Assembly (NCBI GenBank): GCA_025463565.1
Contig: JAODAT010000053.1
Coordinates: 1 to 40,014, forward strand
Reading direction: 5' to 3'
Source of the DNA: Microbacteriaceae bacterium
GTDB taxonomy: Bacteria; Actinomycetota; Actinomycetes; Actinomycetales; Microbacteriaceae
Length of the DNA: 40,014 nt
The position numbers were made by a program, and so were the translations under genes. This document shows positions 5,622 through 32,771 of the stretch, one piece after another. How positions within the stretch are numbered: position 1 is the stretch's first letter; each line of letters starts with the position of its first letter. The notes below the pieces were generated by a model that was not told the origin of the DNA, made no database searches, and saw only the letters and a program-made list of their open reading frames with translations.

Positions 5622-6842
5622 TCAACCCGCGGCGACCGACTGGTTCCGAAGAGGCGCCGCCTCTTCCGTGCCGTCGCTGATGGCTTCCAATCGTTCCGGT
5701 GAGAGCGCATGTTCGATCGCCAGGATGCTCGCACCAGCGACGCCGGCCTCGGTGCCCGAATGAGACAGTTCGATAGTCAGATGTTGCGTCGCGAGCGGCA
5801 TCGAGCGCGCATACACGACCTCGCGGATCCCCGCCATCAGATGTTCGCCTGCCTGGGAGAGCGAACCGCCAATGGAGATGAGGGAAGGGTTCATCACGCT
5901 GACGATGGTGTTCAGCACCTGACCCACATCGCGCCCGGCCTGCCGGATTCCCTGGATCGCAGTGAGGTCGCCGTCGCGAGCCAGTGCGATCACATCCGCG
6001 ATCGTCTCAACATCCAGACCGGCCCTCCGCATTTCCGCCGCGATTGCCGGCCCGCCCGCGATGGCTTCGAGGCATCCGGTGTTTCCGCACCTGCAGGCGA
6101 TCCCTGCTCCGCGCGCGACTGCGATGTGACCGATGTCTCCGGCTGTGCCGTCTTCGCCTCGTTGAAGCCGGCCGCCGCTGATGATTCCGGAGCCGATACC
6201 GGTAGCGACCTTCACAAACACCATATTCTCCGGTTCAGGAGTCCGAGTCGCGCGCTCGCCCAGCGCCATCACGTTCACGTCGTTGTCCACAAGAACAGGC
6301 ACCGGAAAATGCTCTTGGATGGTTCCTGGCACGTCGTATCCGTCCCAGCCGGGCATGAGTGGGGGCTTAGACGGTCGACCGCTTCTGTGCTCGACGGGCC
6401 CCGGCAAACCGATGCCGACGGCGATGAGTTCGGACTGTAGGCGCCCTATCTGTTTCAACAGCTCCTTTGTCGTCTCGACGAGCTCCTCGAGAACCCGGCG
6501 GGGGTCATTGCCGATTTGACCCTCTTTGTGCACTTTGGCGAGCGTCGAACCAACCAGGTCGGTTATGGCGATGGTGGTGTGAGTGGCCCCGATATCCGCC
6601 GCAACCACAAGGCGCGCACTGGGGTTGAACGCGATGCGCGCCGATGGCCGTCCGCCCGTAGATGCAGCGTCCGAAACGGGGATCAGGAGCCCGAGATCGC
6701 GCAGTGCGTCGATTCGGAGCCCGATCGTCGATCGAGCCATGCCCGTAAGGGATGCCAGCTCCGCGCGCGTTCTCGGTGTCCCGTCCCGCATGAGCTGAAA
6801 CAACTCGTACGCCCCGAACCCCAGTGCCGATTTTGTGATCAT
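5622..6842 (-). CDS. ROK family transcriptional regulator
   Basis: A 406-residue sugar-responsive regulator. The N-terminal winged helix (about residues 25-55, TRAELASLTGMARSTI as the helix-turn-helix) is followed by a ROK (repressor, ORF, kinase) domain. The phosphate-binding strand is ADIGATHTTIAITD (about 82-95). The zinc motif has His239, Cys250, Cys252 and Cys257 (CRCGNTGC). GIGLPGPV and NDVNVMALGE are typical ROK segments. The ATG at 6842 has GAGGCGGG just upstream. It is divergent from the catabolic operon starting at 6985, and the 142-bp gap holds an inverted repeat also present before the second operon. It probably represses both until a sugar or cyclitol binds. Catalytic sugar-kinase activity is unlikely but not excluded. 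Confidence 0.93.
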   Translation of the reverse strand: MITKSALGFGAYELFQLMRDGTPRTRAELASLTGMARSTIGLRIDALRDLGLLIPVSDAASTGGRPSARIAFNPSARLVVAADIGATHTTIAITDLVGSTLAKVHKEGQIGNDPRRVLEELVETTKELLKQIGRLQSELIAVGIGLPGPVEHRSGRPSKPPLMPGWDGYDVPGTIQEHFPVPVLVDNDVNVMALGERATRTPEPENMVFVKVATGIGSGIISGGRLQRGEDGTAGDIGHIAVARGAGIACRCGNTGCLEAIAGGPAIAAEMRRAGLDVETIADVIALARDGDLTAIQGIRQAGRDVGQVLNTIVSVMNPSLISIGGSLSQAGEHLMAGIREVVYARSMPLATQHLTIELSHSGTEAGVAGASILAIEHALSPERLEAISDGTEEAAPLRNQSVAAG

Positions 6843-6933: not shown

Positions 6934-6978
6934 CTTTTGCCACTGATTTGACAAAAGTCTAATCGGTCATGTCATACT
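6934..6978 (+). promoter_or_regulatory. Operator and promoter of the first catabolic operon
   Basis: Inverted repeat CTTTTGCCA (6934-6942), 6-nt spacer, TGACAAAAG (6949-6957), matching at 8 of 9 positions. It overlaps a -35 TTGACA (6948-6953), which is 19 nt from a -10-like CATACT (6973-6978). The -10 ends 6 nt before the ATG at 6985, which has no ribosome site. The same TTGACAAAAG, 19-nt spacing and CATACTT recur at 14495-14526. A repressor here would block RNA polymerase; the ROK protein is the obvious candidate (inference). Confidence 0.7.
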
Positions 6979-13418: not shown

Positions 13419-14438
13419 ATGAGTGATTCGCCTGGGAAGCACCCGGTGACCCTGTTCACTGGACAGTGGGCAGACCTGTCATTGGAGGAGGTAGCACGTC
13501 TCGCGTCCGGGTGGGGTTACGACGGCCTCGAAATCGCGGCGTCGGGCGACCACCTGGATCTGGAACGCGCGGACGAGGATGACTCCTATCTGGCTTCCCG
13601 TCTCGAAATCCTTGACCGCCACGGTCTCGGCGTGTTCGCGATCTCCAATCACCTCACCGGTCAGGCGGTGTGCGACGACCCCATCGACTTTCGCCACAAA
13701 GCGATCGTGAGGCCCTCTACCTGGGGCGACGGCGTACCCGAGGGCGTGCGCCAGCGTGCGGCTGAAGACATGAAGCGTTCGGCCCGGGTCGCACGCAAAC
13801 TCGGCGTGGATGTCGTGGTCGGTTTCACCGGCTCAAAAATCTGGCCCTATGTCGCCCAATTTCCTCCGGTTCCGCCGCCAGTGATCGAGGAGGGTTTCGA
13901 GGACTTCGCCGCTCGGTGGAATCCGATACTCGATGTGTTCGATGGCGAGGGAGTCAGGTTTGCCCATGAAGTCCATCCTTCGGAGATCGCCTACGACTAC
14001 TGGTCGAGCGTACGAGCGTTGGAGGCAATCGGCCACAGGAGCGCGTTCGGATTCAACTGGGATCCCAGTCACATGATGTGGCAGGACATCGATCCCGTGG
14101 GATTCATCGTCGATTTCAAGGACCGCATCTATCACGTGGACTGCAAGGACACCCGCCTCCGGCCGCGCAACGGCCGCGCTGGAGTGCTCGGCTCGCATCT
14201 GCCCTGGGGTGATCCGCGCCGAGGCTGGGATTTCGTCTCGACCGGGCACGGCGATGTGCCATGGGAGGACGCGTTCCGCGCGCTCGAATCGATCGGCTAT
14301 GCGGGGCCGATCTCAATCGAGTGGGAGGACGCCGGCATGGACAGGCTGCACGGGGCTGCCGAGGCGATCGGATTCGTGCGCTCCCTTCTCTGGCCGCGAC
14401 CGTCGTCGTCTTTCGACGCAGCCTTCGCCAACCAGTAG
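13419..14438 (+). CDS. Sugar isomerase/epimerase-type TIM-barrel enzyme
   Basis: A 339-residue member of the same superfamily with an intact metal site: Glu184 ([12 protein letters not shown]), Asp215 and His218 (NWDPSHMMW), His239 (IYHVDCKD) and Glu301 (ISIEWEDAG). Such proteins isomerise or epimerise keto-sugars, dehydrate inososes, or eliminate the aglycone from 3-keto-glycosides. They are often encoded beside Gfo/Idh/MocA dehydrogenases. AAGGAG lies 5 nt before the ATG at 13419, which begins 14 bp after the previous stop. It is the last gene of the first catabolic operon. The reaction is inferred only from family and context. Confidence 0.9.
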
Positions 14439-14481
14439 GCCGTCTCACGCTGCTTCCGGTCGGGTGGCGACCGCACGTCCA

Positions 14482-14525
14482 TTTATGTCAAAAGTTGACA
14501 AAAGACTGATGCGGACTGGCATACT
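14482..14525 (+). promoter_or_regulatory. Operator and promoter of the second catabolic operon
   Basis: TTGACA (14495-14500) and CATACT (14520-14525) are separated by 19 nt, exactly as at 6948-6978, and the flanks TTGACAAAAG and CATACTTC are shared. Half-site TTTATGTCA (14482-14490) faces TGACAAAAG (14496-14504) with a 5-nt spacer (6 in the first copy). The sequence also forms TGTCAA-AAG-TTGACA. The likely transcription start is near 14532, leaving a leader of about 100 nt. Confidence 0.7.
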
Positions 14526-14531
14526 TCTACC

Positions 14532-14598
14532 AACAGGCGAGATTAAGCATCGTGCACAGCAAGCAAATGATGTGAGTGCATGACAGCCATCGCCTGTT
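14532..14598 (+). promoter_or_regulatory. Structured 5' leader before the second binding-protein gene
   Basis: Two nested perfect or near-perfect helices: AACAGGCGA (14532-14540) with TCGCCTGTT (14590-14598), and TCGTGCAC (14550-14557) with GTGCATGA (14576-14583, one G-U pair). The outer helix begins at the predicted first transcribed base. No T-run follows, so it is not a simple terminator. The ribosome site AAAGGAGA (14622-14629) lies outside the fold. It could protect the mRNA 5' end or be a ligand- or protein-responsive element. No known riboswitch class is recognised. Confidence 0.45.
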
Positions 14599-14635
14599 AA
14601 GAGTGATTCCGACTCATATTCAAAGGAGAATATTC

Positions 14636-15802
14636 ATGAAAAAACCACTTGCTGTCGCGACGATTGCTGTCGCGCTCGTCGTTGCCGTGGCGGGGTGTTC
14701 GACATCGGGGAGCTCCACCACCACGGGCGGCTCCCAGTCGTCGGCTGCGGTGAAGAAAGCCGAGAAAGCGCTCGCCGCAATCGGCCGCGGTCAGGTCCTC
14801 AGTAAGGGACCGCACGGCGAAACCGCCTCACCGGCGTCATCGGCCGATATCACCGCAGCTGAGGTCGACAAGGTCAAAGCCCTCAACGCGACCGCCGCGA
14901 TCGTCATGCACTATGGCGGAAACGACTGGGCGACCGCGCAGATCGCCGGCCTCAAGAGCGAGTTCGGCAAACTGGGCATCAAGGTAATCGCAACCACCGA
15001 TGCCGACTTCAAGCCGGACAAGCAGGTCTCCGACATCGAAACCGTGATGACTCAGAAGCCGAGCATCATGGTTTCCATCCCGACGGATCCGGTTGCGACC
15101 GAGTCCGCGTACAAGGCGGCCGCTGCCGCCGGCACAAAGCTGGTCTTCATGGACAACGTGCCGAACGGCATGACGGCAGGTAAGGACTACGTCTCCGACG
15201 TCTCGGCTGACAACTACGGCAACGGCGTCGTCTCCGCATATGAGCTGGCGAAGGCGCTCGGCGGTAAGGGGAAGATCGGCGTCATCTTCCACCAGGCGGA
15301 TTTCTTCGTGACCAAGCAGCGCTATCAGGGCTTCAAGGACACGATCACCAAGGAATTCCCCGACATCAAGATCGTCGAGTCGAAGGGAATCGCTGGGCCT
15401 GATTTCGCAGGCGACGCACAGGGCGCGGCCGGGGCGATCCTGACCAAACACCCTGACCTCGCCGCGATCTGGGCAGTGTGGGACGTGCCGGCCGAAGGCG
15501 TCATGGCCGCGGCCCGAGCTGCCGGCCGCACCGATCTCAAGATCGCGACGGAGGACCTCGGAACGAACGTGGCGATTGCGCTGGCCAAGAACCAGCTGGT
15601 GGTTGGGCTGGGCGCGCAGCGACCGTTCGACCAGGGCGTGACGGAGGCTCGTCTCGGTGCGCTGGCGTTGCTCGGGAAGACCGTACCGGCATACGTCGCC
15701 GTGAACGCGCTTCCGGTCGACCACTCGAACGTACTGCAGGCGTGGAAGACCGTGTACCACGCAGACCCGCCTGCCGACCTTCAAAACTCCTACAAGAAGT
15801 AG
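14636..15802 (+). CDS. Substrate-binding lipoprotein, RbsB-like (sugar ABC importer 2)
   Basis: A 388-residue binding protein of the ribose/galactose type (periplasmic-binding-protein fold 1). Lipobox VAVAGC with Cys21, then a Ser/Thr/Gly-rich linker. The core begins ATAAIVMHYGGNDWATAQIAGL (about 83 onward) and contains DKQVSDIETVMTQKPSIMVSIPTDP and VGLGAQRPFDQGVTEA, which are typical of this family. An AAAGGAGA ribosome site lies 6 nt before the ATG at 14636. It is first in an operon with an RbsA-type ATPase and RbsC-type permease, so it should feed a monosaccharide or cyclitol into them. The long structured leader is unusual. Confidence 0.93.
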   Translation: MKKPLAVATIAVALVVAVAGCSTSGSSTTTGGSQSSAAVKKAEKALAAIGRGQVLSKGPHGETASPASSADITAAEVDKVKALNATAAIVMHYGGNDWATAQIAGLKSEFGKLGIKVIATTDADFKPDKQVSDIETVMTQKPSIMVSIPTDPVATESAYKAAAAAGTKLVFMDNVPNGMTAGKDYVSDVSADNYGNGVVSAYELAKALGGKGKIGVIFHQADFFVTKQRYQGFKDTITKEFPDIKIVESKGIAGPDFAGDAQGAAGAILTKHPDLAAIWAVWDVPAEGVMAAARAAGRTDLKIATEDLGTNVAIALAKNQLVVGLGAQRPFDQGVTEARLGALALLGKTVPAYVAVNALPVDHSNVLQAWKTVYHADPPADLQNSYKK

Positions 15803-15807
15803 AACCC

Positions 15808-15838
15808 GTGGGGCGCGGCCTCAGCGGCCGCGCCCCAC
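15808..15838 (+). other. Strong intergenic hairpin between binding protein and ATPase
   Basis: A perfect 13-bp GC-rich stem (15808-15820 with 15826-15838) and 5-nt loop, 5 bp after the stop at 15802 and with no T-run. Such hairpins often guard the 3' end of binding-protein mRNA so that it is more abundant than the downstream ATPase and permease. It may cause partial termination. Confidence 0.7.
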
Positions 15839-15855
15839 CACGAAGGGAACCTTCA

Positions 15856-17373
15856 ATGACGGCAGGCGAGAACCTGATCGAGATGCGGGCCATCTCCAAG
15901 TCCTTCAGCGGAACCCCCGTACTGAGGAATGTCGACTTTTCAGTGCTGAAGGGTGAAATCCACGCCCTCGTCGGCGGCAACGGCGCGGGCAAATCGACCC
16001 TGATGAAGATATTGCAGGGCGTCTACCAGCCGGACGAGGGTGAGATCCTGGTCGGCGGTCGCGCCGTGAACATGGGGTCCATTCAGGATGCCCGGGCCGC
16101 AGGAATCGGCATGGTCTTCCAGGAATTCAGCCTGGTCGCAACCCTCACGGTCGCCCAGAACATCTTCCTCGGCGTTGAACCTCTTCAGGGCATGCGCCTA
16201 ATCGATGACCGCGAAGCAGTCCGGCGCGCGGTGACAATCTTTGCCGATATGGGAGTCGATCTCGACCCGCGGACGGAACTCTCGCATCTCGGCACCGCCT
16301 ACTGGCAGTTGACGGAGATTGCCAAGGCTCTCGCGCAGGAGGCGAAGGTGCTCATCATGGATGAGCCGACGGCGAGCCTGGCGCAGCAGGAGACAGAAGC
16401 ACTGTTCGCGCTCCTGGCGCGACTGAAGGAGCGCGGCATTGCGATCGTGTATATCTCGCACCGGATGGACGAGGTGTACCGCATCGGCGACCGCATCACG
16501 ATCCTCCGAGACGGCACCAGATTTCTGACCGCAGCCGTCTCGGACACCACGCCGGAACAAATAGTCGAAGGAATCGTCGGCAGAAAGATCGAAGGGCAAC
16601 TCACCTACCGTGAGCGGCCCGGAATAGCGCAGGAATCGTCTCCGGTATTGCTCGAGGCACGCGATCTGGTCGCAGGAACCAGGGTGCGAGATGTGTCGTT
16701 CGCGTTGCGCGCAGGCGAGATCGTCGGTATCGCCGGTCTGATGGGCAGCGGCCGTACCGAACTTCTGAGAGCCCTGTTCGGAATCGACAGGCTCCGGCGC
16801 GGAGAGGTGCAGGTTCGGGGAAAGAAGATCGACCTTTCGAAACCCAAGAAGGCCATCGCGGCAGGGTTGGCGCTCATCCCCGAAGATCGCCGGGCGCAGG
16901 GCCTGGTTCTCGACCACTCGGTCATCGATAACCTCCTGCTTCCCCTGCTCGATCAGATCGAGCGGGGCCCATTCCTCGACATGCGCGCCGGAAATACGTT
17001 GGCGGCCGCCCTTATCGCGAAGTTCGCTATCAAGACGTCTCGCCCCCAGCGCGCGGTGCGATTGCTCTCCGGCGGCAACCAGCAGAAGGTCGTACTCGCC
17101 AAATGGTTGGGGACCAACCCCGATGTTCTGCTCCTCGACGAACCGACGGCGGGGGTGGACATAGGCACCAAGAGCGAGATCCTCGAGCAGATTCGCGAAC
17201 TCGCGAATGCGGGAAAGGGCGTCATCGTCGTCTCTTCGGAGTACCCGGAACTTCTCGCTGTAAGCGACCGGGTACTCATCATGCGCGCCGGCGCGATCGT
17301 CGCAGATCTCAAGCGAAGCGAGATCGCCGACGAGGAATCCCTTCAACTGATAGTCCAAGGAGTGACAGAGTGA
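15856..17373 (+). CDS. Sugar ABC transporter ATPase with two nucleotide-binding domains (RbsA-like)
   Basis: A 505-residue fused ATPase. Domain 1 has Walker A GGNGAGKST (40-48) and Walker B VLIMDE (165-170). Its ABC signature, normally LSxGQ, reads LGTAY (145-149), an unusual change before QLTEIAKAL. Domain 2 has the degenerate Walker A GLMGSGRTE usual for this family (294-302), signature LSGGNQQ (404-410) and Walker B VLLLDE (424-429). It powers import through the RbsC-like permease, whose GTG start overlaps this gene's last four bases (GTGA). The start is the ATG at 15856. The size is normal for the family. Confidence 0.94.
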   Translation: MTAGENLIEMRAISKSFSGTPVLRNVDFSVLKGEIHALVGGNGAGKSTLMKILQGVYQPDEGEILVGGRAVNMGSIQDARAAGIGMVFQEFSLVATLTVAQNIFLGVEPLQGMRLIDDREAVRRAVTIFADMGVDLDPRTELSHLGTAYWQLTEIAKALAQEAKVLIMDEPTASLAQQETEALFALLARLKERGIAIVYISHRMDEVYRIGDRITILRDGTRFLTAAVSDTTPEQIVEGIVGRKIEGQLTYRERPGIAQESSPVLLEARDLVAGTRVRDVSFALRAGEIVGIAGLMGSGRTELLRALFGIDRLRRGEVQVRGKKIDLSKPKKAIAAGLALIPEDRRAQGLVLDHSVIDNLLLPLLDQIERGPFLDMRAGNTLAAALIAKFAIKTSRPQRAVRLLSGGNQQKVVLAKWLGTNPDVLLLDEPTAGVDIGTKSEILEQIRELANAGKGVIVVSSEYPELLAVSDRVLIMRAGAIVADLKRSEIADEESLQLIVQGVTE

Positions 17374-18353
17374 GCAATCCAGCAACCGGAACACCCGATA
17401 GGGAGACGTCGACGAGCGTCCTCCGTCGTCTCGCGGCTATCGAATGGCGTCGCTACGTCATCTATATCGGCTTCGTCGTCGTCTTCATCTTCTTCGCGGT
17501 ACTGCTCGGGAACGATGGATTCCTCAGCCCCACGAACCTGCTCAACATCTTGCGCCAGACATCGACCATCATGGTGATTGCGGTCGGGATGACCTACGTC
17601 ATAGCCGCGGCCGAGATCGATCTCAGCGTGGGCTCCATTGCGGGCCTGTCCAGCGTCGCAGCAGCCATGGCCATCTCCCAGTGGGGGATCGTGCCCGGTG
17701 TGCTCGCGGGTCTCGCGGTGGGTGTCGTAGTCGGAGCAATCAACGGTTCTCTTGTGAGCCTGCTCGGGATCCCTTCGTTCTTGGTGACTCTCGGGATGAT
17801 GGGGGTCGCTGTCGGCGTAGCCCAGTGGATAACGAACTCTGCTCCCCAGCCGATCCTTGACGACACATTCAACTTCGTCTTCGGATCGGGCAATTTCGGC
17901 CCCGTTCCCAGCCTCGTGGCGTGGGCAGCCGTTTTCGTCGTCGTCGGCACCATCGTGCTTCGCCGTACCCGGTTCGGCCGACAGGTGCTGGCAACGGGCG
18001 GTAATCGATCGGCCGCTGACTTCACTGGCATCAACACGAGGCGCATCAAGTTCCAGGTGCTCATGCTCTCCGCGCTTGCGGCAAGCGTTGCGGGCATGCT
18101 CTACGCGGGCAGACTGCAGTCCGGTCGTTTCCAATGGGGCGATGGCGATGAGCTGTCCGCGATCGCCGCCGTGATTCTCGGCGGGACGAGTCTGTTCGGC
18201 GGGAGCGGCACGGTCATCGGCACGGTCTTCGGAGCCCTTCTGATCGGGCTCATCAACAACGGCCTGATTCTGGCAGGACTCGACAGCAGCCAGCAGCAAA
18301 TCGTCCGCGGCGCCATCATCATCCTCGCCGTGGCGCTTGCCCGCAAGAAGTAG
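17370..18353 (+). CDS. Sugar ABC transporter permease (RbsC-like)
   Basis: A 327-residue membrane protein of the branched-chain amino acid/ribose permease fold, with about 8-10 hydrophobic segments beginning at YVIYIGFVVVFIFFAVLL. Family landmarks are MTYVIAAAEIDLSVGSIAGL (about 74-93), GNRSAADFTGINTRRIK (about 211-227) and AVILGGTSLFGGSGTVIGT (about 267-285). The GTG start at 17370 has AAGGAG 7 nt upstream and overlaps the ATPase stop, so translation is coupled. Together with the preceding two genes it makes a complete importer. Confidence 0.94.
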   Translation: MSNPATGTPDRETSTSVLRRLAAIEWRRYVIYIGFVVVFIFFAVLLGNDGFLSPTNLLNILRQTSTIMVIAVGMTYVIAAAEIDLSVGSIAGLSSVAAAMAISQWGIVPGVLAGLAVGVVVGAINGSLVSLLGIPSFLVTLGMMGVAVGVAQWITNSAPQPILDDTFNFVFGSGNFGPVPSLVAWAAVFVVVGTIVLRRTRFGRQVLATGGNRSAADFTGINTRRIKFQVLMLSALAASVAGMLYAGRLQSGRFQWGDGDELSAIAAVILGGTSLFGGSGTVIGTVFGALLIGLINNGLILAGLDSSQQQIVRGAIIILAVALARKK

Positions 18354-18377
18354 CCGCGGACGCGAAGGGAAATTACA

Positions 18378-19205
18378 GTGCAATTCGGATACTGCTCGAA
18401 TACCTGGGGCACCCTCGCGGGTTCAGCTGCCGGCGTGACGAGCGTCAAAGACCTCTTCTACGAGATCGACGGGTCGCTCGATCGAGCGGTCGACGACATC
18501 GCGGAGGCGGGATTCACGGGCCTCGAATTGTTCGACGGCAATCTCGTGCGGCTTGCCGGCAGCCGGGATTCGTTCGTCGATCGAATAGCGCAGGCAGGAC
18601 TCGAACTGGTCAGCGTCTACACGGGAGCAAGCTTCGTATACCAGGACGCGCTCGATGACGAGATGCATAAGGTTCGAAGGGCGATCACCCTTGCCGCGCA
18701 GTTCGGCGCCTCGCGTCTGGTTGTCGGCGGCGGAGCTCCCCGCGCTGCGGGAACCCGACCCGACGATTACGAACGTCTGGGCAGAGCGCTCGACCGGGTC
18801 ACCTCGATAGCTGAGGATGCTGGGCTGAGCGCAAGCTTCCACCCGCATCTGGGGACCATCGTCGAGTCGCCCGACGAACTGGAACGCCTGATGGTGCACA
18901 CCAGAATCGGGTTCTGCCCGGACGTGGCCCATCTAGCGGCCGGCGGCGGAAATCCGGTTGCGATTATTCGGCGATTCGCGGACCGCATCACTCACGTGCA
19001 TGTGAAGGATCTGCAGACCGAACCCTTCGAATTCCGCCCACTGGGCGAAGGCGAGTTGGACATGGCGGCCATCGTCAATGCAGTGCGCGAGAGCGGCTAT
19101 GACAGCTGGCTCATGGTCGAACTCGATTCGTACGACGGTGACCCCAAGGTCGCCGCACAGATTAGCAAGCAATACCTCGACGAGATCGTGGCTGACAGAA
19201 AGTGA
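18378..19205 (+). CDS. IolE/IolI-like TIM-barrel isomerase or dehydratase
   Basis: A 275-residue xylose isomerase-like barrel protein. Likely metal ligands are His155/His157 (FHPHLGTIVES), Asp182/His185 (CPDVAHLA), His206/His208 (ITHVHVKDLQ) and Glu248 (MVELD). The HPHLGT, HVHVKD and PLGEGELD segments are the ones seen in inosose dehydratase IolE and isomerase IolI. This makes a keto-inositol or related keto-sugar a reasonable substrate, though not proven. It starts at a GTG with GAAGGGAA upstream. Its stop overlaps the next gene by 4 bases (GTGA), so it is tightly coupled to the dehydrogenase. Confidence 0.9.
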   Translation: MQFGYCSNTWGTLAGSAAGVTSVKDLFYEIDGSLDRAVDDIAEAGFTGLELFDGNLVRLAGSRDSFVDRIAQAGLELVSVYTGASFVYQDALDDEMHKVRRAITLAAQFGASRLVVGGGAPRAAGTRPDDYERLGRALDRVTSIAEDAGLSASFHPHLGTIVESPDELERLMVHTRIGFCPDVAHLAAGGGNPVAIIRRFADRITHVHVKDLQTEPFEFRPLGEGELDMAAIVNAVRESGYDSWLMVELDSYDGDPKVAAQISKQYLDEIVADRK

Positions 19206-20383
19206 CTACAGTGCAAAACCTCAATGTGGGACTTATCGGCGGTGGCTTCATGGGCAAAGCCCATTCGCTGGCTTACGCCGCGATGCCGATGTTCTTTTGG
19301 CCGGCGCCGGCCATGCCCGTTCGCCGGACGATAGCCGAGGCGACACCCGAGTTGGCGGCCGAAGCAGCACAGCGCTTCGGATTTCAGAACTCGACCGCCG
19401 ATTGGCGCCAGATAATCGACGATCCGGACATCCAGGTCGTCGATATCGCAACTCCCAATCACCTTCACGCGGAGATCGCTATCGCGGCCGCCCAGGCAGG
19501 CAAGCACATCATCTGCGAAAAGCCCTTGGCCCGGACCGGGCACGAGGCAAAGGCCATGTACGACGCGGTGAAGGATTCCAATGTCGTGCACATGGTCGCT
19601 TTCAACTACCGTCGCACGCCCGCGGTCGCACTAGCCAAGAAGTTCATCGACGAGGGCGCTCTCGGACGAATTCTGAACTTTCGAGGAACCTATCTTCAGG
19701 ACTGGAGCGCGGACCCCAATGCCCCGTTGTCCTGGCGGTTTCAAAAATCGCTTGCCGGATCGGGCGCGCTCGGCGACACCGCGACCCACGTCATCGATCT
19801 CGCGCGGTACCTGGTCGGAGAGTTCAGCCAGGTGAATGCCCTGGCATCGACCTGGATACCCGACCGGCCGGTTCAGTCCAGTGGGGCGGACAGTCTCGGC
19901 AATGTGCAGGCAGTCGATGGGCCGCGGAAGGAGGTCGACGTGGACGATGAGATCATGACGATGATCCGCTTCGCCGGAGGTGCCGTTGGATCAATCGAAG
20001 CGACGCGCAACGCGTACGGGCGGAACAACTACCTCACTTTTGAGATCCACGGCACGGAGGGCAGTGTCGTATTCAACTACGAGCGACGAGACGAGCTTCA
20101 AGTGCACTTCGCGTCGGACCCCGCGGACAGGAGCGGTTTCAGGACCATATACACCGGCCCGGCACATCCTTACGGGGGAGCCCTGTGGCCCATCCCAGCA
20201 CTGGGTATCGGTTACGGCGAGACGAAGATCATCGAAGCGCACGACTTCTTCGAGGCGATTATGGGAAGCGGAACCGTCAGCCCGAATTTTGCTGACGGTT
20301 ATCAGGTCGCACTCATCGATGACGCCATCCTGGAATCCGTCTCGACCGGAAAGTGGGTCGACGTCGCCACGGTGGTCGACTAG
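19202..20383 (+). CDS. Gfo/Idh/MocA family oxidoreductase (second copy)
   Basis: A 393-residue NAD(P)-dependent dehydrogenase. The Rossmann loop is GGGFMG (13-18), the catalytic Lys is in CEKPLA (105-110), and Asp192/His196 lie in GDTATHVIDL. The C-terminal region (YGGALWPIPALGIGYGETK) is typical of a large uncharacterised subgroup next to TIM-barrel isomerases. The GTG at 19202 overlaps the isomerase stop; a GTG at 19211 is a possible alternative. Last gene of the second operon, it ends in a 4-bp convergent overlap with the AraC-type gene through the palindrome CTAG. Likely to oxidise the imported compound or reduce a keto-intermediate. Confidence 0.92.
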   Translation: MTTVQNLNVGLIGGGFMGKAHSLAYAAMPMFFWPAPAMPVRRTIAEATPELAAEAAQRFGFQNSTADWRQIIDDPDIQVVDIATPNHLHAEIAIAAAQAGKHIICEKPLARTGHEAKAMYDAVKDSNVVHMVAFNYRRTPAVALAKKFIDEGALGRILNFRGTYLQDWSADPNAPLSWRFQKSLAGSGALGDTATHVIDLARYLVGEFSQVNALASTWIPDRPVQSSGADSLGNVQAVDGPRKEVDVDDEIMTMIRFAGGAVGSIEATRNAYGRNNYLTFEIHGTEGSVVFNYERRDELQVHFASDPADRSGFRTIYTGPAHPYGGALWPIPALGIGYGETKIIEAHDFFEAIMGSGTVSPNFADGYQVALIDDAILESVSTGKWVDVATVVD

Positions 20384-21372
20384 ACAGGCATACCCCTCAT
20401 CGTGTCGGACGGCTGTTCGGAGAACCGGCGACGGTAGCTGGCGGCGAATCGACCGAAGTGGGTGATGCCCCATCGTGCTGCGACTTCGGTGACTGTTACC
20501 GAACCCGGTTCGGCATCCGAAAGCTCCTGGTGTATCTGTTCGAGGCGCAGCTGGCGGAGGTACGCCATCGGGCTGGTGCTCATCGACCTGCGAAATCCCT
20601 CCTGGAGGCTGCGCACACTGACAGCTACATTGCCCGCCAGTTCGGAGACCGTCCATGCGTGCTCCGGCCTGGCCCGCAGCAGCTCCACCGCGTGCGCCAC
20701 GGGTCGCGGTCCGGCGGGGGCGACGGACGAACCGAGGGCCGCGGAGTAATTGTGTGGTTGAGCCAACAAGAGAGATCCGATCAGCACCTGCTCAAGGCGC
20801 TGCGAGGCGAGAGGATGTCGGAGCAGCCCGCTTTCGTTGTTCGACTCGAGATCGATCAGGCGGAGTGTGTGAAGCACTGTGCGGCCAGGTCCCGTCGTCA
20901 GGTCCATTTCGGTGGAGAACACCAGCGGTTCGACGACGCTGGAACCGAGGAGACTTTCCAGTTCGAGATCCAGTTCCGAGCGAGGGATCATCAGCGACAC
21001 CTGGGCAAAGTGCTGATCGCAATCCAGGTCGGCGGGATAGCCCGGCTGGAACACCGCGGCAGTCCGGGGTGTTCCGTAGACGGGCGCGTGCCTGCCTTCT
21101 CGCATGATGGCTCGGCCCGTCACGGGGATGTCGACGTGGTAATTCGTCGCTTCGCTGGTGCGAATCTGAATGGCATCCCCAAATCGAAGGTAGCCCGCGG
21201 TTACTCGACCCACCGTGATGACGTTCAGGCTGAGGTCCACCGCAGTGGATGCCGAGGTCGAGGGAAAATCCAGCGGCAGGAAGACTTCGCTGAGCACCTG
21301 TCGTGCGTGGTCGATGTCGTCGGACGCTCCGGCCGGGTGACTCTTGAACATCTCACTCGTGACGTGTGGCAC
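20380..21372 (-). CDS. AraC family transcriptional regulator
   Basis: A 330-residue regulator. The N-terminal half (about residues 20-190) matches the AraC-binding-like cupin domain (HARQVLSEVFLPL, then YHVDIPVTGRAIM). The C-terminal AraC/XylS DNA-binding domain lies at about 225-325, with WTVSELAGNVAVSVRSLQEGFR and TVTEVAARWGITHFGRFAASYR as its two helix-turn-helix units and RFSEQPSDTMR at the end. I chose the GTG at 21372 rather than the GTG at 21402: a consensus-like TATACT lies exactly 6 nt upstream, and the shorter protein fits the family. It is convergent with the catabolic operon and divergent from the SGNH/GAF gene. A role in either is possible. Confidence 0.9.
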   Translation of the reverse strand: MPHVTSEMFKSHPAGASDDIDHARQVLSEVFLPLDFPSTSASTAVDLSLNVITVGRVTAGYLRFGDAIQIRTSEATNYHVDIPVTGRAIMREGRHAPVYGTPRTAAVFQPGYPADLDCDQHFAQVSLMIPRSELDLELESLLGSSVVEPLVFSTEMDLTTGPGRTVLHTLRLIDLESNNESGLLRHPLASQRLEQVLIGSLLLAQPHNYSAALGSSVAPAGPRPVAHAVELLRARPEHAWTVSELAGNVAVSVRSLQEGFRRSMSTSPMAYLRQLRLEQIHQELSDAEPGSVTVTEVAARWGITHFGRFAASYRRRFSEQPSDTMRGMPV

Positions 21373-21378
21373 CCGCAG

Positions 21379-21384
21379 AGTATA
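21379..21384 (-). promoter_or_regulatory. -10 box TATACT of the AraC-type gene, leaderless
   Basis: TATACT on the minus strand is 6 nt before GTG 21372 with no ribosome site between. It lies inside the extra reading frame that a start at 21402 would require, which argues for the shorter protein. Confidence 0.5.
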
Positions 21385-21537
21385 GGGCTCCCGTCTGGGC
21401 ACGGTTGGGGTACTGCGTGGATTCCTCTTCCGCGCAAAGTGGATGTTCGACCGCGTCAGGCGGATTTCGCGGCCGGCCAGGCCGACTTACTTTTGAATGC
21501 ATCGGTGGCCAGACGGCCGTCGAGATGCGAGGAGTCG

Positions 21538-22776
21538 ATGGACAAGCCATCACGTTGGTTCACCGTCCCACTTCTGCGAGCATGGGTCGCCTCGAAGACG
21601 GAAGAGGTCAACCGCCTCCCGCGTCCCCGCGACCTGCCGGAGTCCCACTCGATCGGGTTCAACAGCGATCGCGTACTTATCTTCGGGGGAGGTCCCGCGG
21701 TCGGGTGGGGTGTCCTCAGCCATGAGGTCGCACTTCCCGGTGCCCTTGGTCGTGCGCTGTCACGTCAGACGGGTCGTGGGGCGACTGTGCAGGTGACGGC
21801 CATTCCGCGGCTGAAGGTCGGCTCAGCCGTCACCGCGCTCAGCGAAATCAAGCTGCATCGGTATGACGCGGTGGTCGTGACCCTGGGCGTGAACGACGCC
21901 GGAGCGTTAACGGCGCTCGCGTCCTGGCGACGCGACCTGACCAGCACGCTGCACGAGATACTCCAGCGGTCATCGCCGGTCGCGCGGATTTTCGTGGCCG
22001 GCGTGCATCCGATTCGTTCGATACCCGTCTACGACGGTCCGTTGGGTTCAATTGCAGACGCACACGCCCGAAAGATGAACGCTATCTCAGCAGAACTGTG
22101 CAGCCCGCTGTCCCGGGTGACGTTCGTGCCGTTGACGGCGCCCGAGGACTGCGGCGACCTTCGGTTCCGCGACGCGATGTCGTATCGGCACTGGGCCGAG
22201 GAGCTCGCAAGACCCATGGCGCCCCAACTGGATGCCGCGCGCCGTGTGACCGACTTCGACCGCACGCCAGGGAGCGAAGCGGGCTTCGATTCCCCGGAGG
22301 CGAGGGAAGCGGCTGTCGTGGAACTCGGAATTCTGAGCGACGATCGACGCTGGCACTTCGACGACGTCGTCGCCCGCGCCTGCGCGACCTTCGGGGTGCG
22401 ATCGGCCACGGTGAGCGTTATCGATTCGGATCACCTTGTTCATAAGGCGCAGGTGGGCGATGTACCCCAGCTGATCATGCTCGGTGCTTCTTTTACCGGG
22501 CGTGTGATTCACGAGCGGGACGGCATGATGGTACCGGACGCGACTGCGGATGCCCGATTCCGGAATCTTCCGCACGTGGCCGGTGAACCTTACATCCGGT
22601 TCTATGCCGGATTCCCCCTGGAGGGCCGCGACGGAAGCCGGATCGGCACCCTGAACGTCTTCGATCCTGCGCCACAGCTCCCGGATGACTCCTCGGGGTT
22701 GTCCCTTCTCCGCCAGTTCGGTCTCATGGCACAGGCCGAGATACGTCGGGGAGGGGATCGGCGACCGACGGTCTGA
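21538..22776 (+). CDS. SGNH-hydrolase-like protein fused to a GAF domain
   Basis: A 412-residue two-domain protein. Residues about 45-240 follow the SGNH/GDSL hydrolase layout, but block I, normally GDS, reads GGGPAVG, so the nucleophilic Ser is missing. Block III is GVND and a His lies in YRHWAEE near the end. Residues about 270-405 form a GAF domain (ACATFGVRSATVSVIDSDHL, FYAGFPLEGRDGSRIGTLNV). No output domain follows. GAGGAG sits 3 nt before the ATG at 21538. The frame stays open upstream, opposite the AraC gene, but that part looks antisense. The role is unknown; a ligand-sensing protein is plausible. Divergent from the AraC gene with a 165-bp gap. Confidence 0.82.
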   Translation: MDKPSRWFTVPLLRAWVASKTEEVNRLPRPRDLPESHSIGFNSDRVLIFGGGPAVGWGVLSHEVALPGALGRALSRQTGRGATVQVTAIPRLKVGSAVTALSEIKLHRYDAVVVTLGVNDAGALTALASWRRDLTSTLHEILQRSSPVARIFVAGVHPIRSIPVYDGPLGSIADAHARKMNAISAELCSPLSRVTFVPLTAPEDCGDLRFRDAMSYRHWAEELARPMAPQLDAARRVTDFDRTPGSEAGFDSPEAREAAVVELGILSDDRRWHFDDVVARACATFGVRSATVSVIDSDHLVHKAQVGDVPQLIMLGASFTGRVIHERDGMMVPDATADARFRNLPHVAGEPYIRFYAGFPLEGRDGSRIGTLNVFDPAPQLPDDSSGLSLLRQFGLMAQAEIRRGGDRRPTV

Positions 22777-31653: not shown

Positions 31654-32693
31654 TCAGCGTTCCCCGCTACCTCATCGTCGGCCTCGCCGCGGTGTTCTCC
31701 GCGTACCACGTGCTGCTCGCCACCGTCTCGCTCTGGGTACCCGCCGACAAGGGCCCATACATCGCGGCGATGGCGCTGTTCGCAATCGCGACCGCGATCA
31801 GTCTCTGGCCGTCGAAGAAGGCGCGGATGCCGGTCTGGATGGCCGCATTCGACGTCGCGATCGCCCTTGTGGTGCCGCTGCTCGTCACGAGTGTCGTGCA
31901 CAAGGTGCCGCCGGACAGTTATGCGGCGTGGCACACGGCGGCGATCGGCACGCTGATGGTGATCGTGTCGACCCGCCGGCGACAGTGGTTCGCCTGGGTG
32001 GGCATCGGCATCCTCATCATCGAGACAGTTGTCTGGTCGGGTTTCGCCGGCCTCGTGACCTATGGGGTGATCGGCAGCACCGTGTGGGTGGCGATCGCGT
32101 TCGCGTTGTCGCTTTCGCTGGCGAGCGCCGACCGGGACGCCCGGCAGTACGCACTGGCCGAGCGCGAGGCCGTCGAGTGGCGTGCCGCCCAGGAGGCGCA
32201 CGTGTCGGAGCGGCAGTTCCGTCTGGGGCAGACCAGCCGCATGGCGCTGCCCATGCTCAGGCAGATCGTCGCATCGAACGGCGAGCTGAGCGAAGGCCAG
32301 CGTCTCGAATGCATCTACCTCGAGGGAGCCATTCGTGACGAGATCCGCGGGCGCAAGCTGCTGAACGACCGGGTGCGGGAACAGATCATGATCGCGAGGC
32401 GTAAGGGCACCATCGTCACGCTGCTCGACGAGGGTGGTCTCGACGACCTGGACGACGACGACCTGGAGCGTGTGCTCAACCGACTGGCGGAGGCCATTCG
32501 CGATACGGAGACGCAGAAGCTCATCGTGCGGACGGTGCCGGAGGGCTCGGACACGGCCATCACCGTCGTCGGGCTCAGCTCACTCGATGACGGGCATTCC
32601 AGCGCGCTGGGGCACCATCCGGAGAACGACGAGGATGACGAGGACCGCGTCGACCTCTGGCTGGAGATCCCGCGCGCGCTGGTCAGCGCCTAG
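31650..32693 (+). CDS. Membrane protein resembling a kinase without catalytic motifs
   Basis: A 347-residue protein. About five membrane segments (about 7-150) are followed by a long helical stretch (about 155-215, ADRDARQYALAEREAVEWRAAQEA) and a C-terminal domain. Its helices and spacing (LGQTSRMALPMLRQIVASNG, LEGAIRDEIRGRKLLNDRV) resemble a histidine-kinase dimer and ATPase region, yet no HD/HE phospho-acceptor and no clear N or G boxes are seen. An Asp-rich patch (LDDLDDDDLE) lies near 270. Overlaps the kinase gene by 4 bases and is likely a partner that modulates or dimerises with it. The family is not named with confidence. Confidence 0.8.
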   Translation: MISVPRYLIVGLAAVFSAYHVLLATVSLWVPADKGPYIAAMALFAIATAISLWPSKKARMPVWMAAFDVAIALVVPLLVTSVVHKVPPDSYAAWHTAAIGTLMVIVSTRRRQWFAWVGIGILIIETVVWSGFAGLVTYGVIGSTVWVAIAFALSLSLASADRDARQYALAEREAVEWRAAQEAHVSERQFRLGQTSRMALPMLRQIVASNGELSEGQRLECIYLEGAIRDEIRGRKLLNDRVREQIMIARRKGTIVTLLDEGGLDDLDDDDLERVLNRLAEAIRDTETQKLIVRTVPEGSDTAITVVGLSSLDDGHSSALGHHPENDEDDEDRVDLWLEIPRALVSA

Positions 32694-32700
32694 AGCCAAA

Positions 32701-32771
32701 AGCGGGTCGAGCTTGTCGAGACCTCACCGACGAGCAACCTGCTGGTGAGGTCTCGACAAGCTCGACCCGCT
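32701..32771. repeat. Long palindromic repeat, copy 2
   Basis: A perfect 28-nt inverted repeat (32701-32728 with 32744-32771), 15-nt loop, beginning 7 bp after the stop at 32693. The arms include the same GGTCGAGCTTGTCGAGACC core as copy 1 at 25645. AAAA just before the left arm would give a T-run for minus-strand transcription, so it could act as a terminator from the right. Confidence 0.88.

Follow-up and report, generated by a model that had tools for sequence, protein, structure and literature searches.

A candidate 5'-terminal mRNA stem and a Shine-Dalgarno-presenting hairpin in the predicted leader of a sugar ABC-transporter operon from a Microbacteriaceae bacterium

Two sugar operons with a common promoter pattern

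The window, by which we mean the whole 40,014-nucleotide stretch of Microbacteriaceae DNA that was analysed, carries two sugar operons, and the features of the second operon, its leader and its putative regulator are collected in Table 1. The first operon codes for Gfo/Idh, SBP_bac_1 transporter, dehydrogenase and isomerase-like proteins. Downstream of the second operon there is a frame at 20353-22776 with GDSL lipase and GAF domains, which seems an odd pairing. Orthologues of the second operon are found in two Cryobacterium genomes (Cryobacterium sp. HLT2-28, locus L142, and C. tepidiphilum, locus L143), where the binding protein is 80-83% identical to that of the window and the gene order is largely kept, with an additional Gfo/Idh gene between the permease and the isomerase. 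Among the 12 other genomes of the genus, the binding protein has a match at E <= 1e-40 only in G002, at 33-35% identity. This poor representation in the genus, together with the close Cryobacterium relatives, suggests that the operon (14636-20383) was possibly acquired horizontally.

Table 1. Positions of the regulatory features, predicted RNA helices and genes discussed in the text.
Feature	Positions	Strand	Basis or remark
ROK-family regulator	5622..6842	-	ROK domain; HTH match below cut-off; divergent from first operon
Twin promoter, first operon	6948..6978	+	same pattern as second-operon promoter; predicted leaderless, ATG 6985
Inverted repeat TGTCAAAAGTTGACA, candidate ROK-type operator	14486..14500	.	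overlaps -35; putative binding
Promoter TTGACAAAAG-N15-CATACT, second operon	14495..14525	+	-35 14495-14500, -10 14520-14525, 19-nt spacer
Predicted +1	14532	+	7 nt after CATACT
Outer helix, 5' arm	14532..14540	+	AACAGGCGA; sequence and fold
Inner helix, 5' arm	14550..14557	+	TCGTGCAC; sequence and fold
Inner helix, 3' arm	14576..14583	+	GTGCATGA; one G-U
Outer helix, 3' arm	14590..14598	+	TCGCCTGTT; sequence and fold
Small 4-bp hairpin GAGT/ACTC	14601..14615	+	between stem and SD hairpin; minimum free energy fold
Hairpin ATATTC-(AAAGGA)-GAATAT, SD in hexaloop	14616..14633	+	fold; same geometry in both Cryobacterium orthologues
Substrate-binding protein (Peripla_BP_4), first gene	14636..15802	+	ATG 14636; lipoprotein by signal peptide (by eye)
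ABC ATPase frame (ABC_tran, two stretches)	15478..17373	+	true start probably near 15.8 kb
Permease (BPD_transp_2)	17103..18353	+	domain match
Sugar isomerase/epimerase-like (AP_endonuc_2)	18378..19205	+	domain match
Gfo/Idh/MocA oxidoreductase	19202..20383	+	domain match

The promoter pattern TTGACAAAAG-N15-CATACT has only two exact matches in the organism's own genome (88% complete), one ahead of each operon, and with at most one mismatch it occurs in 4 of 398 family genomes, its own included. A consensus promoter scanner reported no promoter, as the 19-nt spacer of the second-operon promoter lies outside its range of 16-18 and the -10 element reads CATACT. In the first operon the ATG is located 7 nt after CATACT, which places the first base of that hexamer 12 bp ahead of the start codon. 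Leaderless genes, which are frequent in Actinobacteria, are reported to be marked by a TA-like signal about 12 bp before their start codons (PMC3160421), and the mRNA of the first operon appears to be leaderless. When the 7-nt spacing of the first operon is applied to the second, the predicted +1 falls on 14532, the first base of the outer helix; the distance from -10 to transcription start reported for C. glutamicum is 3-11 nt (PMC3890552). The original prediction that a helix starts at +1 gains support from the twin-promoter rule, and the +1 itself is still a prediction. The leader so defined would be 104 nt long and end in a hairpin that presents the Shine-Dalgarno sequence (SD).

A scan for the TGTCAAAAGTTGACA repeat found it perfect on the plus strand and with 3 mismatches on the minus strand, while the first promoter of the window and the C. 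tepidiphilum promoter both carry CTTTTG-N12-CAAAAG across the -35 element. Judged by sequence, the latter is closer than TGTCAAAAGTTGACA to the T-rich/A-rich repeat organisation described for ROK sites (PMC4856308). Both hallmarks of a ROK-regulated operon, a ROK gene nearby and a T/A-rich inverted repeat at the promoter, are found here, with binding itself predicted. In HLT2-28 a ROK homologue (65% identical) is directly divergent from the SBP operon, and no ROK gene was matched in the stretch examined from C. tepidiphilum. Sugar control of the second operon is therefore plausibly transcriptional and exerted via a ROK repressor, and the two mRNAs, the one leaderless and the other with a long leader, might be driven by a single regulator.

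The stem at the predicted mRNA start

The 9-bp perfect helix and the 8-bp helix that it was said to enclose are both present, with nine perfect pairs between 14532-14540 and 14590-14598 and eight between 14550-14557 and 14576-14583, the inner helix having a single G-U at 14552/14581. The predicted fold of the 67 nt from 14532 to 14598 has a minimum free energy (MFE) of -25.9 kcal/mol and a z-score of -4.24, a value equalled by 0 of 200 dinucleotide shuffles, and it has the thermodynamic stability looked for in a stabilising stem-loop. When the segment is extended to 14532-14640 the z-score is -3.68 and 1 of 200 shuffles is equally good. Taken by itself, the 9+8 bp nesting is commonplace at this scale, with 23 register matches at 7 places within the 40-kb window and a mean of 4.85 register matches in 20 shuffled windows. 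What sets this stem apart is where it begins, as only 1 of 5000 shuffled leaders has a perfect 9-bp helix that starts within nt 1-3, in a test chosen after the stem had been seen. The position of the helix at the predicted +1 is probably beyond chance, a result that hangs largely on the predicted transcription start.

Other features of the leader agree with the original prediction. No terminator-like site (a G+C-rich hairpin followed by a T run) occurs within 14300-14800, as expected from the reported lack of a terminator tail, and the impression that the stem belongs to no recognised RNA class is matched by Rfam, where nothing around the leader exceeds its gathering threshold. The sole match at that threshold in the window is a tRNA elsewhere, and the three matches around the leader have E-values of 8.7-9.9 and lie far under their gathering scores. 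Pairing between the long stem and the SD is absent from both the MFE and the centroid structures.

The two Cryobacterium orthologues retain CAAAAG-N15-CATACT with the same promoter spacing, and by eye their leaders can be aligned with that of the window at the ribosome-binding site (RBS) only, with no covariation demonstrable helix by helix. We compared how strongly nt 1-8 of each leader are paired. In the window leader their pairing probability is 0.97 (0 of 300 shuffles equal). The leader of C. tepidiphilum opens, exactly at the equivalent +1, with a different hairpin of 9 bp and the probability is 1.00 (1 of 300 shuffles equal), and in HLT2-28 the hairpin at +1 is weak, with a probability of 0.80 and a fraction of 0.18 of shuffles equally good. 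Candidate long-range pairs, TTGCCGA/TCGGCAA in C. tepidiphilum and GATGTCGC/GTGACATC in HLT2-28, were considered as a helix shared by these leaders and rejected, as they start upstream of the predicted +1 and are absent from the MFE structures.

The comparison was widened to 80 orthologous loci kept of 214 relatives found. A mechanical promoter rule, which also misses HLT2-28, gave a promoter in 18 of the 80 leaders and none in 62, and 7 of these 18 show pairing of nt 1-8 at or below the 0.05 level. A set of 14 leaders was then assembled from the window, HLT2-28 and 12 of the 18 rule-positive leaders, leaving out two whose promoters were judged spurious (L051 and L100) and four near-duplicates (L074, L093, L097 and L101). 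At the predicted +1, pairing of nt 1-8 scored at or below 0.05 in 5 of the 14 (4 of 13 without the window), with a median of 0.115; at offsets of 4 to 44 in the same leaders, 0-2 leaders per offset did so and the medians were 0.29-0.71. Overall the data favour a +1 stem that is kept as a shape and not as a sequence or a conserved RNA fold.

Readings of the stem

The reading that we prefer, with a probability of roughly one in two, is that 14532-14598 is a 5'-terminal stem that stabilises the mRNA of the sugar ABC-transporter operon. It is favoured by the stable fold, the twin promoter, a helix that begins at the predicted +1 and the raised +1 pairing in part of the orthologous leaders, and such an element would be expected to look like this, constant in shape at the 5' end and free in sequence. 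In this scheme the second operon would probably be repressed by the ROK regulator at its promoter, which would give sugar control, and once transcribed the mRNA would have its 5' end buried in a duplex and be attacked poorly by 5'-end-dependent decay enzymes of the RNase E/J type. Slowed decay would then keep the abundant binding-protein mRNA stable, and the separate downstream hairpin would display the SD in a hexaloop, with a presumed effect on translation. Four leaders with no raised pairing at +1 (L082, L083, L089 and L094), two in which the +1 stem overlaps an operator-like palindrome (L043 and L073), the weak +1 hairpin of HLT2-28, the 62 orthologues left promoterless by the mechanical rule and the lack of helix-by-helix covariation count against this scheme. 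RNase E is reported to cleave a base-paired 5' phosphate end more than 10-fold more slowly in vitro (PMC3997798), and the ompA leader, whose stem is described as nonspecific in sequence, to lengthen half-life in E. coli (PMC7148126). The same source describes an M. smegmatis sigA 5' UTR that gives a shorter mRNA half-life than a synthetic UTR, and thus a long actinobacterial leader need not stabilise. As in E. coli ompA and papA and B. subtilis aprE, the stem is predicted to lie at or near the mRNA 5' end and upstream of a separate ribosome site, the likeness to papA and aprE being the one conveyed by the titles of the papers on them. It differs from all three in being longer, two-tiered and actinobacterial, and in that both +1 and stabilisation are predicted here.

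The main rival, which we regard as somewhat doubtful, is chance, in which a GC-rich leader simply folds strongly and the stem has no function. The 7 places in the window with the same nested geometry, set beside the mean for shuffled windows, speak for it, as do the conservation of the stem neither as sequence nor as architecture and the weak +1 stem of one orthologue; a start exactly at the predicted +1, the z-score of the fold and the +1-specific pairing in the orthologous leaders all run against it. Decidedly less probable is a protein-binding or attenuation leader, in which a protein binds the stem or an alternative fold controls read-through or translation. Such a role would suit a leader that is long and structured and precedes a regulated operon, and in each of the Cryobacterium leaders the strand around +1 could pair with either of two partners, of which one is in the MFE structure. 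Against this stand the missing terminator, the stem left unpaired with the SD and the lack, by eye, of a conserved loop sequence.

We consider very improbable that the element acts in the DNA, as an operator pair, a repeat or a recombination site. It is indeed a long inverted repeat, but a 211-bp query covering the leader matches its own genome (88% complete) only once, on which ground a repeat or mobile element was rejected, the regulator-type repeat sits at the promoter instead, and neither arm recurs by eye in the Cryobacterium leaders. An integron attC-like site was suggested by the AAC...GTT ends and discarded: the attC core is RYYYAAC/GTTRRRY, which the flanks do not fit, and Rfam gives no support. 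Least probable of all is a riboswitch sensing the transported compound. Its nested stem, its position and the sugar operon behind it are what such an RNA would have, but no Rfam match reaches the gathering threshold, no core outside the RBS is common to the two same-spacing orthologues compared, no expression platform was seen, and the ROK regulator already there could explain sugar control. Among the functions first proposed, a stabilising cap is the best supported, a protein-binding leader, though conceivable, gains no support, and a sensing RNA finds no backing in Rfam or in a conserved core. A leader peptide was also dismissed by eye, as there is just a 6-codon frame at 14580 plus an in-frame GTG at 14576 with no SD.

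If the stabilising stem holds, it would exemplify, in a high-GC actinobacterium, a 5' stem whose shape is kept in the leader of a regulated operon, and this operon and its twin, which has a promoter of the same pattern and is predicted to be leaderless, would form a natural pair for measuring the effect of a leader.

A Shine-Dalgarno hexaloop at binding-protein genes

The conserved part of the leader is the hairpin at 14616-14633, which did not feature in the original prediction and is a more novel lead than the stem. The window and the two Cryobacterium leaders have in common ATATTC-ANNGGA-GAATATTC-ATG (14616-14638), which forms a hairpin of 6-7 bp with a six-base loop; the window version is computed at -2.4 kcal/mol at 37 C and -6.0 at 15 C. 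The same loop with different arms is seen at other transporter genes, at L142, L143, L002, L098, L231, L273 and others. Outside its own genome the 211-bp leader query gave short matches only, the best of which (27 nt, in G036) is the RBS of another lipoprotein-like gene.

We then asked how frequent such hairpins are at SBP genes of families PF13407 and PF01547 from 30 related genomes, chosen without regard to the hairpin. Of 135 SBP loci, 80 were places at the top of the family match lists and new to the locus set, and at 55 the gene was taken as the best central frame, which is wrong in some, with the lipobox rule serving as a filter. Removal of 28 without a GGA SD plus lipobox and of 4 duplicates left 103. 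Arms of at least 3 bp that flank NNNGGA with no extra loop base were found at 22 of these 103 starts, relative to a permutation mean of 4.6 (0 of 1000 permutations as high), where the arm permutation ignores relatedness and the p-values for the SD hairpin are approximate. In the same register, arms of at least 4 bp occur at 9 starts (null 1.4) and of at least 5 bp at 4 (null 0.4). The excess persists after removal of similar proteins (17 of 89 starts, null 3.7, 0 of 2000 as high) and among starts with an AGGAG SD (16 of 46, null 3.7), where the second pair of the 16 hairpins is T-A in 10, A-T in 4 and C-G in 2. As computed here, the arms around the SD hexaloop covary at SBP genes of related actinobacteria.

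As a control we used Gfo/Idh genes, taking 29 of 30 PF01408 loci (L356 was skipped, its strand not being listed) and 40 more, of which 27 of the 69 had no GGA SD and 42 were used. Only 2 of these 42 have the hairpin (null 1.3; Fisher p 0.014 versus all SBP starts), and among AGGAG starts only, 1 of 12 (p 0.09). Among 20 other registers, arms of at least 3 bp are in excess at p <= 0.05 for x=4,y=1 (13 versus 4.4) and x=5,y=2 (7 versus 3.2), which is explained by the same arms being counted one and two pairs further out; register x=0,y=2 at 5 bp or more (2 versus 0.3, p 0.02) is an isolated cell with no such explanation.

Over 400 kb from each of G005 and G036, the 137 gene starts surveyed showed no overall enrichment of SD hairpins. 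In 800 kb of two relatives, lipoprotein-like frame starts, a class defined by pattern, had the hairpin in 8 of 30 cases (null 1.5), of which three (L167, L179 and L181) look by eye to be false genes, and other strong-SD starts had it in 12 of 188 (null 12.0). When the start rule was relaxed, the hairpin occurred at non-lipoprotein genes in 29 of 391 cases at 3 bp or more, versus 21.3 (p 0.06), and in 15 at 4 bp or more, versus 8.2 (p 0.012), so there may be a weak signal outside lipoproteins.

With its GGA placed in a six-base loop and overlapping the SD, the hairpin is reminiscent of CsrA/RsmA sites. The consensus CsrA/RsmA loop is ANGGAN, with GGA centred in the hexaloop, whereas the window loop is NNNGGA closed directly by G. 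In the CsrA register (GGA centred, x=2,y=1) 4 of 103 SBP starts were seen versus 3.9 expected, and a CsrA reading of the hairpin was rejected for this misfit of register. No CsrA was found in the organism's own genome (88% complete), while 16 of the 30 related actinobacterial genomes searched, including those of L326 and L327, have a homologue. Hairpins of at least 3 bp occur at 15 of 56 SBP genes where the genome has CsrA versus 7 of 47 in the rest, a group in which some genomes are incomplete and one row is unlabelled. The presence of CsrA is thus no clear guide to how often the hairpin occurs. The short AU-rich stem at the SD, computed to be more stable in the cold, is also like a fourU or ROSE thermometer. 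Such thermometers hold the SD in the stem and have a U-rich anti-SD arm; here the SD is mostly in the loop and there is no U-rich anti-SD arm.

A wider proposal, which we offer tentatively and think unlikely to hold in full, is that in Microbacteriaceae and allied actinobacteria the mRNAs of sugar- and solute-binding proteins present their SD in an NNNGGA hexaloop on a freely covarying 3-7 bp stem, and that a dedicated factor or sRNA recognises it and so defines a nutrient-uptake regulon controlled after transcription, with the 5' stem as the stability half of the leader design. Hairpins of this kind, recurring at binding-protein genes, would add a directly testable layer to the control of nutrient uptake. 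In the open-licence literature, searched by titles and the openings of abstracts, no description of an SD hairpin at an actinobacterial transporter or lipoprotein gene turned up.

Elsewhere in the window, just after a frame that ends at 32693, there is a perfect 21-bp inverted repeat at 32701-32771, with arms at 32701-32721 and 32751-32771, which accounts for 13 successive 9-bp registers.
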